Source of the DNA: Nitrospirota bacterium
GTDB taxonomy: Bacteria; JACPQY01
DNA length: 64,000 bases
NCBI GenBank assembly: GCA_016190245.1
Contig: JACPQY010000024.1
Coordinates: 166,502-230,501 of the forward strand
Direction of reading: 5' to 3'
Part shown: positions 4,113-7,267 of the stretch, one piece after another
How the letters are laid out: each line of letters opens with the position of its first letter
Numbering within the stretch: the stretch's first letter is position 1
Notes under the pieces: model-generated
What the model saw: only the letters and a program-made list of their open reading frames with translations
Databases searched by the model: none
What the model was told of the DNA's origin: nothing
Made by a program: the position numbers and the translations under genes

Positions 4113-5309
4113 TCAGTACGACCTCGGCATCCCGAGCACGTGCTCGCTGATGTAGTTGAGAATCATCTCCTTCGAGATGGGAGCCGTGCGCAAGAGCCGC
4201 GTGCCCTCCCAGTAGTAGATCAGGCCGTACTCCTCGGAGAAGCCGTAGCCGCCGTGCGTCTGGATGGCACGGTCCACCGACTTGATGGCCACCTCGGCCG
4301 CCTGGTACTTCGCCATGTTGGCCCACGTGCCGACCTGTGCCGGGTCAAAACCCTTGTCGAATGCCCAAGCCGCCTTGTACATGAGCAGCCGCGCGCCTTC
4401 CAACTCGATCTTGCATTCCGCCAGCGGATGTTGAAGCCCCTGATACACGCCGATGGGCTGGTCGCGGAAGACCTTTCGCTGGCTGGCGTACTCCACGGCC
4501 TTCCCGATCACGTAGTCGGACATCCCCACGGCCGTGGCCGCGGCAAGAATCCGCTCGGGGTTGAGCGTGTTGAACAGGGCCATCGAGCCCATGTTCTCCT
4601 GCCCGATGAGGTTCTCCGCGGGCACTTTCACATCATCGAAGAAGATCGTGAACTGCCTCATGCCCTCGATGCCGTGTGTCGGGATCACCTGAAGCTCGAT
4701 GCCCTTGCTCTTGCAGTCCACCATGAAGAGCGAGAGGCCGAACGCCTTGGGCAGACCCTGCTTGGCGAGCTCGTCCACCGTGGTCGTGCGCGCCACGACG
4801 AGCATGTAGTCGGCCGCGTCCACGCCGGTGATGAAGGTCTTCTGGCCCGAGAGACTGTACGCCGAGCCGTTCTTCCGCGCGACGGTCTTGAGGCGGAACG
4901 TATTGCTGCCCGCGTCCGGCTCGGTGAGGGCAAAGGCGAACTTGAGCTTGCCCTGGGCCACGCCGGGAAGGAACCGCCGCTTCATCTCCTCGCTGCCGTT
5001 GCGGAGGATGCAGAGCGAGTCCATCGTTGTGAGGATCGTGAGTGCCGTTCCGAAACCGTGGCTGCCCATCGTCTCGGAGGCAACCACCATGGCCGTGAGA
5101 CCCAGTCCCGTGCCGCCGTACTCCGCTGGGATCAGGCTGCCCATGATGCCGGCCTCCGCAAGGGCATCCCAAAGCTCCTGGGGAAATTTCTTCTCCTTCA
5201 GGACCATCTTGCGGAACTCCTCGCGGCGCGGGGCGAACCGCTTGATCATGTCGTCGACGGTCTTCTGGATCATCTTGTGTTCTTCGCTGAGCTCGAAATC
5301 CATCGCCAT
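4113..5309 (-). CDS. Acyl-CoA dehydrogenase
   Basis: 398 aa, the normal length for the family. The N-terminal helical domain begins FELSEEHKMIQKTV; the middle beta domain has FALTEPDAGSN (FAD/substrate contact) and the C-terminal helical domain has QTHGGYGFSEE. The expected catalytic Glu is present in YWEGT (E368). It catalyses FAD-dependent alpha,beta-dehydrogenation of an acyl-CoA and passes electrons to ETF; neither etfAB nor an acyl-CoA ligase is in the window. An excellent Shine-Dalgarno (AAGGAGG, 7 nt before ATG) fixes the start. It faces the epimerase convergently and may be followed by its own terminator-poor gap. Confidence 0.92.
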   Translation of the reverse strand: MAMDFELSEEHKMIQKTVDDMIKRFAPRREEFRKMVLKEKKFPQELWDALAEAGIMGSLIPAEYGGTGLGLTAMVVASETMGSHGFGTALTILTTMDSLCILRNGSEEMKRRFLPGVAQGKLKFAFALTEPDAGSNTFRLKTVARKNGSAYSLSGQKTFITGVDAADYMLVVARTTTVDELAKQGLPKAFGLSLFMVDCKSKGIELQVIPTHGIEGMRQFTIFFDDVKVPAENLIGQENMGSMALFNTLNPERILAAATAVGMSDYVIGKAVEYASQRKVFRDQPIGVYQGLQHPLAECKIELEGARLLMYKAAWAFDKGFDPAQVGTWANMAKYQAAEVAIKSVDRAIQTHGGYGFSEEYGLIYYWEGTRLLRTAPISKEMILNYISEHVLGMPRSY

Positions 5310-6167: not shown

Positions 6168-6201
6168 TACTGTACACTGACCGGCCGTCTTATGTACAGT
6201 A
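6168..6201. promoter_or_regulatory. 34-bp tripartite palindrome, copy A
   Basis: Outer arms TACTGTACA (6168-6176) and TGTACAGTA (6193-6201) are perfect inverted repeats, separated by 16 nt whose centre reads CCGGCCGT. Read on the minus strand it begins with the same 20 bases as copy C. It lies between the regulator gene and the membrane protein gene, in the probable promoter region of the latter. The same layout occurs at 6891 and 7092. Confidence 0.75.
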
Positions 6202-6233
6202 AAGATCGCCGGCCTGCACACCTGCCGGGCCCA

Positions 6234-6884
6234 TCAAGGCGGGAGGAGGATCATCTCCCCCCAGCAGCAATAGGGCATCACGCCCAAGTCCTCCATGCGT
6301 TCGAGCGTCGGCCGCAGCCGGGCGGGAGGGCCGACGTAGTAGCTGCCGTTGAGCTGAATGAAACCGAACCCGAGAAGACACCTCCGCGCCCGTGCCCGAT
6401 CCTTCCGCAAGCGTTCGGGGATGTCATACGAGATGAACGCAGCCCGCCGCTTGCCCAGACCGACCGATCGCGCGAGCATCCGTCGGAGCCCGTGGAAGCG
6501 GTCCTGGCGGCTCATCTTCCTGGCGGCCTTCTCGACTTCGGCCAACCGCCTCCCCGTGACCCCTTGCCCTCCGGCGCCGGTGGAATCCGAAGCCCGTTCC
6601 CACTCCGGAAGGCTTCGTGCCCCCTTGGGCGTCAGCGCAATCCGTTTCTGTCTACGCAGTCCCTGCATCCTGACCAGCCCGGCTGCGGCCAGGCGGTAGA
6701 GGTAGCGGTACGTATGCGCGGACCTGCGGCTCGGATTCTGATCCACAAACACGAACTGTTCTCGTAGGCTCAAGACACGCACCAGTTCGTTGACGAGGAT
6801 GGGCGCGGCCACGTCCTGGGCGAGGACCCGGAGGATGGCGAGATTCAACCGGCTGCGGACTCGGCGGCGTTCCCCGGGCGTCAT
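6234..6884 (-). CDS. Winged-helix DNA-binding protein with a Cas2/PaaX-like C-terminal domain
   Basis: 216 aa. Residues about 10-90 form a winged-helix candidate (helices around AILRVLAQDV and the recognition stretch RSAHTYRYLYRLAAAGLV, then a RIALTPKG wing). Residues about 147-216 have the Cas2-like ferredoxin pattern AFISYDIPERLRKDRAR...GF.QLNGSYYVGP, also found at the end of PaaX-type repressors. There is no CRISPR array or other cas gene nearby, so a transcriptional repressor is the better reading. Palindrome copy B ends 7 nt before its ATG, which implies autoregulation. The -10-like TACAGT inside that palindrome is 7 nt from the ATG, so the mRNA could be leaderless. Confidence 0.65.
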   Translation of the reverse strand: MTPGERRRVRSRLNLAILRVLAQDVAAPILVNELVRVLSLREQFVFVDQNPSRRSAHTYRYLYRLAAAGLVRMQGLRRQKRIALTPKGARSLPEWERASDSTGAGGQGVTGRRLAEVEKAARKMSRQDRFHGLRRMLARSVGLGKRRAAFISYDIPERLRKDRARARRCLLGFGFIQLNGSYYVGPPARLRPTLERMEDLGVMPYCCWGEMILLPP

Positions 6885-6890
6885 GCCGGA

Positions 6891-6924
6891 TACTGTACAC
6901 TAGACGGCCGTCCAATGTACAGCA
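6891..6924. promoter_or_regulatory. 34-bp tripartite palindrome, copy B
   Basis: TACTGTACA (6891-6899), then CTAG, the self-complementary core ACGGCCGT (6904-6911), CCAA, and TGTACAGCA (6916-6924, one mismatch to the perfect arm). It sits directly upstream of the regulator start codon at 6884 and would overlap its promoter. Confidence 0.75.
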
Positions 6925-7091
6925 AGACCCCCGCCATGGGTGACCCAATCGAGAGGCGGCGTTCCCCACCACCCTGCCGGTCCAGACCGCTGCGAGACCG
7001 TGGGCAAATCCCTCCCAGACGACATCATCCCGCGCCGGCGGCGGGACGTCGGCTGAGCCTCGCGAGCCGCGCACCTGACTCGTGGTGCGTA

Positions 7092-7125
7092 TACTGTACA
7101 TAAGACGGCCGTTCACTGTACAGTA
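7092..7125. promoter_or_regulatory. 34-bp tripartite palindrome, copy C
   Basis: TACTGTACA (7092-7100), TAAG, core ACGGCCGT (7105-7112), TCAC, TGTACAGTA (7117-7125). Both outer arms and the core are perfect. It lies about 140 nt upstream of the small helical-protein gene starting at 7268 and could control it. The remainder of 6925-7230 shows no coding signal. Confidence 0.75.
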
Positions 7126-7230
7126 GAAACGGAGGCCGTCGCGGACCGCCGCGCCTCCCGATACGTGGCTGTGCCGTCGCCGACGGGGCGGCGGTGGGTC
7201 GCAAGCCCCAAGCCTGATCCCCAAGGACCG

Positions 7231-7265
7231 TTGACGCTGGGCGCACCGCGTGCGCCCAGCGTCAA
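7231..7265. promoter_or_regulatory. 15-bp perfect hairpin directly before a start codon
   Basis: TTGACGCTGGGCGCA (7231-7245), loop CCGCG, and its exact complement at 7251-7265. It ends 2 nt before the ATG at 7268 and leaves no room for a separate Shine-Dalgarno. In RNA it would be very stable, so it may limit translation of the downstream gene; as DNA it could be an operator or a terminator of upstream transcription. Confidence 0.6.
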
Positions 7266-7267
7266 CG

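Follow-up and report, generated by a model that had tools for sequence, protein, structure and literature searches.

The analysed stretch of DNA (hereafter the window) comprises 64,000 nucleotides of contig JACPQY010000024.1 from a Nitrospirota bacterium. On its minus strand lies a gene (6234..6884, with the ATG at 6884) for a 216-aa regulator, which combines an N-terminal winged helix with a C-terminal Cas2-like (PaaX_M) domain. Three 34-bp palindromes, to which no strand is assigned, border the gene: palindrome A (6168..6201; TACTGTACACTGACCGGCCGTCTTATGTACAGTA) 32 bp 3' of the regulator stop codon, palindrome B (6891..6924; TACTGTACACTAGACGGCCGTCCAATGTACAGCA) 6 bp 5' of the start codon, and palindrome C (7092..7125; TACTGTACATAAGACGGCCGTTCACTGTACAGTA) at 207 bp from the regulator ATG and 142 bp from a small plus-strand DUF5618 gene, upstream of both. 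From the outer edge of A to the outer edge of C the palindrome-bounded unit (6168..7125, likewise unstranded) measures 958 bp, with one palindrome downstream and two upstream of the gene.

According to the original prediction, the three palindromes share outer arms and an exact N16 spacing, enclose a self-complementary core that is imperfect in A, and are all intergenic, with B adjoining the regulator start; each of these points was borne out. The pattern TACTGTACA-N16-TGTACAGTA occurs three times in the window against 0.00 copies expected by chance; the arms of A and C are free of mismatches and those of B contain one (...CAGCA). The core ACGGCCGT is present in B and C, and A deviates from it on one side (ACCGGCCGT). 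Taken together, the sites have a consensus that is palindromic over all 34 bp, TACTGTACA-nnnR-ACGGCCGT-Ynnn-TGTACAGTA, and A and C are near-perfect inverted copies of one another (94% over 35 nt). A perfect 18-bp inverted repeat with a 3-nt loop (7229-7267), just 5' of the DUF5618 gene, is unrelated to the 34-bp palindromes.

The PaaX_M domain of the 216-aa protein scores 27.1 bits (Pfam cut-off 24). Pfam returned no match to the PaaX N-terminal winged helix or to the C-terminal PaaX domain, and the latter is absent, the protein stopping after its Cas2-like part. A profile of 57 homologues matches the window protein with 37 bits in all, in two colinear stretches that correspond to the winged helix (approximately residues 43-93) and the Cas2-like domain (approximately 150-205). 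Judged by this alignment, the protein is a distant member of the family with the same architecture as its homologues. Scores against Cas2 families fall under the cut-offs (12.5 of 23.8 and 13.3 of 24.5 bits), and a Y1_Tnp domain was not matched, PaaX_M being found instead. An AlphaFold prediction from the single sequence was unusable (pLDDT 35). Codon usage of the gene is atypical (4th percentile among 115 genes). Its neighbours are a membrane-protein gene and the DUF5618 gene; paa genes are not found nearby, and the neighbourhood contains neither cas1 or other cas genes nor a CRISPR array. A search of genome contigs for relatives of the 216-aa protein returned none, and homologues were reached by a Pfam-profile search. 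The window's own genome (G000) also encodes a longer PaaX-like protein of 336 aa (G000:C43:8684-9694; L070 4685-5695); within 10 kb around that gene there are no palindromes with a ACGNNCGT core.

Distribution and variation of the palindrome in the source genome

The source assembly (3.29 Mb in 86 contigs, 85% complete) contains 17 copies of the palindrome – three in the window and 14 elsewhere – spread over 12 different contigs; the control gave 0. Fifteen copies have perfect 9-nt arms, two have a single arm mismatch and none has two or three. The original prediction had taken copies in genomes lacking the regulator as a sign of a mobile palindromic element, and no such copies emerged: the sole family relative (G001) has neither the regulator gene nor palindrome sites, and the four exact matches among 84,980 other species are as many as chance would give for an 18-base pattern in 257 Gb. 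The viral contigs scanned for the pattern gave 0 matches, and the search for a close relative carrying the window locus found none.

Conservation between the arms is confined to R-ACGGCCGT-Y; the three outermost positions on either side vary. These variable positions behave independently, with shared half-sites and near-identical pairs occurring as in column shuffles, and bases across the two palindrome halves pair no more often than at random (46 of 68 pairs vs 42.6 +/- 3.4, p=0.19). Being neither linked nor paired, they fit a protein that reads double-stranded DNA at fixed positions. Recent descent of the copies from one master element was rejected, since the variable positions are unlinked and near-identical copies are not in excess; exchange of half-sites was likewise rejected, overall sharing being that of the shuffles (p=0.41). 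Three sites nonetheless have cyclic half-sites (A=X.Y, C=Y.Z and G000:C10:76798=Z.X), as though a Y-ended unit had inserted into an X.Z site (p=0.002, calculated post hoc). Elsewhere, two palindrome copies (L027 192-360 and L034 5045-5250) have shared flanks, approximately 87-93% identical, which represent a duplicated gene 3' end with the palindrome approximately 20 bp past the stop.

Placement was assessed against gene calls from a simple codon-usage script, which locates starts only approximately. Coding sequence makes up approximately 85% of the genome, yet all 17 sites fall between genes, one of them overlapping a doubtful start by 10 bp. Eleven of the 17 stand no more than 250 bp upstream of a start, compared with 59% of random intergenic positions, and four of the 15 classifiable sites lie in gaps between convergent genes, compared with 29% of background intergenic positions. 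The neighbouring genes have no common theme (NAD(P)H-hydrate dehydratase, TauE, acyl-CoA dehydrogenase, GGDEF/EAL, FadL-like and nucleoside-hydrolase genes). A promoter regulon was rejected as an account of this placement, which shows no enrichment over random intergenic positions. The small regulon of the original prediction thus finds no backing in the placement of the 17 sites or in their functionally unrelated neighbours; copies dispersed with no relation to promoters, which the prediction itself had named as evidence to the contrary, are what the genome-wide scan revealed, and the regulon claim is weakened.

Two kinds of observation hint at insertion. In a CRISPR array, one site lies between the final perfect repeat and a degenerate one (p ~0.001) and so seems to interrupt the last spacer; and flush, diverged direct repeats of approximately 36-39 nt flank two of the 17 sites (p 0.003 and 0.002). 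Repeats resembling target duplications were not found around the window palindromes. These are hints, short of proof. The array in question (L035, G000:C79:116300-126300, at 4601-5108), with 37-bp repeats and the palindrome copy in its last spacer, stands beside cas1-cas2-cas4; on the opposite strand of L035 a large protein starts like Cas9/IscB (a RuvC-type N-terminus, judged by eye).

Palindromes at homologous genes

PaaX/Cas2-like genes of two other phyla likewise lie between palindromes, which measure approximately 34-40 bp and have a CGNNCG centre. One such gene, on contig C30 of an unrelated small genome (G095), is preceded by two 34-bp palindromes and followed, 4 bp past its stop, by a third; the whole occupies 958 bp, the same length as the unit in the window. 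Its palindrome, CACA-N8-RACGATCGTY-N8-TGTG, has a centre (RACGATCGTY) comparable to that of the window (RACGGCCGTY) and different arms; G095 has 10 copies of it, of which five form a tandem array ahead of a single gene. A second PaaX-like gene of G095 has a different 34-bp palindrome, TTGCA-N7-TCCGATCGGA-N7-TGCAA, whose eight copies lie on both sides of the gene and in six other intergenic places. A PaaX-like gene in a further genome (G233:C50) also has palindromes on both sides. Palindrome A of the window is the counterpart of the downstream palindromes at these homologous genes. A profile of the G095-type proteins matches E. coli PaaX in the PDB (8a39, E=4e-28).

The tandem array in G095 (L088 3881-4155, on C30) consists of five 34-bp palindromes, spaced 58-65 bp apart, ahead of a 548-aa gene, and at least three tandem palindromes occupy an apparently orthologous place in G293 (C9:2027-2184). 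Outside the two phyla the PaaX_M loci inspected (L042-L068) are mostly without flanking palindromes; one candidate for a flanked case, L048, was discarded as a true Cas2 adjoining a CRISPR array.

A larger sample is provided by a phylum with mostly 0.5-1.5 Mb genomes, probably Patescibacteria, in which 122 of 379 genomes have the PaaX_M domain, in up to 11 genes each, mostly of 170-220 aa. Across 63 loci, the flanks on the two sides of one gene, upstream and downstream, resemble each other far more than flanks of different genes do (median score 26 vs 10, p=2e-23), 44 of the 63 exceeding the 99th percentile of the cross-gene controls; the CGNNCG centre is present in 66 of 74 palindromes. Neighbours of the units are mostly housekeeping genes, on either strand. 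Within the 565 kb of G418 that were read, palindromes of their own flank most of the paralogues sampled. One of them (C1:9451) has two palindromes upstream and one downstream, as in the window. Solitary cognate copies number three or four for C4:206910, two for C4:263283 and one for C1:9451, and three of six strong solo palindromes in this genome lie between convergent genes.

Outside the window's phylum, corresponding gaps in sister species may be occupied or empty. Between kefB and cysS a palindrome-gene-palindrome unit is present in two species, with differing arms, whereas the gap measures only approximately 50-175 bp in two others; between smpB and argS there is a unit in G536 and approximately 100-120 bp in G654 and G462; and between lemA and secA a unit in G587 and approximately 90-100 bp in G595 and G309. 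No leftover palindrome was found in these short empty gaps, which argues that units are gained or lost cleanly, a pattern of presence and absence also expected of ordinary accessory genes.

These comparisons show that PaaX/Cas2-like genes are widely paired with boundary palindromes specific to each gene, whose solo copies are dispersed elsewhere. To this pairing the window belongs as a distant member, and its solo sites are unusually numerous and unusually uniform.

Interpretation and alternatives

That the arms change with the paralogue, while length and layout stay constant, is the strongest evidence for the protein as reader of the palindromes. The prediction of the winged-helix/Cas2-like protein as cognate binder is in this way supported by inference from homologues, whose palindromes are alike in length and centre and paralogue-specific in their arms; the 216-aa protein is very probably the binder of its own palindromes. 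It would be a short PaaX-family protein in which the Cas2-like domain is probably the dimerisation part, and a dimer or tetramer may contact the two paralogue-specific outer arms and the central CGNNCG, leaving free the 3-4 nt between. The gene and its flanking palindromes constitute one compact unit, the downstream site marking its other end. Autoregulation of the gene is plausible, because there are sites just upstream of its start, and would probably be mediated by them. Solo copies of the palindrome are scattered through intergenic DNA regardless of promoters, having been spread, we infer, by or with the protein. Our preferred reading, which we hold to be on balance probable, is that the protein recognises the palindromes that enclose its gene, and that gene and palindromes form a palindrome-bounded unit plus dispersed solo sites, with an anatomy like that of REP/RAYT systems.

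The same sites might instead be the 17 operators of an ordinary autoregulated PaaX-type repressor, those in convergent gaps controlling unannotated small RNAs or genes, or acting as roadblocks. PaaX repressors are indeed an established family whose operators have widely separated arms (PMC9493321); site B and the homologous sites precede the regulator start by 6-50 bp, one G095 gene has five tandem sites in front of it, and the near-invariant arms imply constraint at every site. We nevertheless consider such a regulon rather unlikely: proximity to starts is that of random intergenic positions, convergent gaps are not avoided either here or by the solo sites of G418, the putative targets are unrelated, and autoregulation has no need of a downstream palindrome. 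Moreover, each site holds approximately 56 bits of information, far above the 17.6 needed for specifying 17 sites. Strongly constrained arms and an intergenic, promoter-independent placement on 12 contigs would equally suit a nucleoid or segregation factor with the palindromes as non-promoter landing sites, in the manner of MatP/matS or ParB/parS. This appears improbable, given that up to 11 paralogues with different palindromes coexist in small genomes and that units, unlike a core organiser, come and go between sister species.

Every copy could also fold into a long hairpin, and several lie just past stop codons, as might be expected of transcription terminators or of single-stranded transposition ends. 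There is, though, no covariation that keeps the halves paired, the arm bases are invariant and no T-tract follows the palindromes, so that a hairpin function, already disfavoured, has very little probability. As regards mobility, a mobile repeat should leave decayed copies; none has two or three arm mismatches and no genealogy of copies is apparent, which makes the sites look more like individually constrained binding sites. It is chiefly this absence of decayed copies that keeps a dispersed-site regulon or an architectural role under consideration. Returning to the reading of a palindrome-bounded unit with solo sites, we tentatively extend it: the winged-helix/Cas2-like protein may disseminate, or may once have disseminated, its own palindromes and unit from one intergenic site to another, as RAYTs do for REPs though with an unrelated fold. 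The units would then be a class of selfish or domesticated elements, present in several phyla and with numerous orthogonal pairs of protein and palindrome in each genome. We regard this extension as possible and stop short of calling it probable.

A cognate pairing of this kind would assign both a likely function and a cognate DNA to PaaX/Cas2-like proteins, a large group so far unexplained that includes up to 11 paralogues in genomes of approximately 1 Mb, and would make many orthogonal protein-DNA pairs available from which a recognition code could be read. Should the units be mobile, they would represent a counterpart of REP/RAYT based on another protein, and possibly a link of a Cas2-type domain to mobile DNA outside CRISPR. 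In the open-access literature we found no description of such a gene-plus-palindrome system, and no paper joining Patescibacteria and PaaX, or PaaX, Cas2 and winged helix.

Relation to known systems

With the Cas2 of CRISPR adaptation the window protein shares the ferredoxin-like Cas2 domain and a conserved Asp (SYDIPE); it differs in scoring under the Cas2 cut-offs and in having no cas genes or array adjoining. The likeness to E. coli PaaX, the repressor of phenylacetate catabolism with the operator TGATTC-N27-GAATCA (PMC9493321), extends to the PaaX_M (Cas2-like) domain, the winged helix, autoregulation (plausible here) and widely spaced operator arms. The window protein, however, is shorter, lacks the C-terminal domain and has no paa genes nearby, and its sites have a conserved centre and are dispersed genome-wide; the E. 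coli paa operators were rejected as examples of the same geometry, and both sequence and spacing differ. PaaX proteins are further characterised as a family by an aryl-CoA ligand.

REP/RAYT (TnpA-REP) systems consist of short extragenic palindromes at many intergenic places and a single gene flanked by matching palindromes (PMC2817692, PMC3116915, PMC8266576). The present system is not filed under REP/RAYT because the defining HUH transposase is absent: the protein is a winged-helix and Cas2-like one, unrelated to the Y1/HUH tyrosine transposase of RAYTs. Copies number 2-17 rather than the hundreds of REPs and are not visibly decayed, and where REPs are expected to conserve a single-strand hairpin, the source genome shows no hairpin covariation. 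The likeness lies in the anatomy: in the window, as in REP/RAYT, a gene is flanked on both sides by matching palindromes, the palindrome is specific to its gene, and copies of it – 17 in this genome – occupy intergenic DNA.
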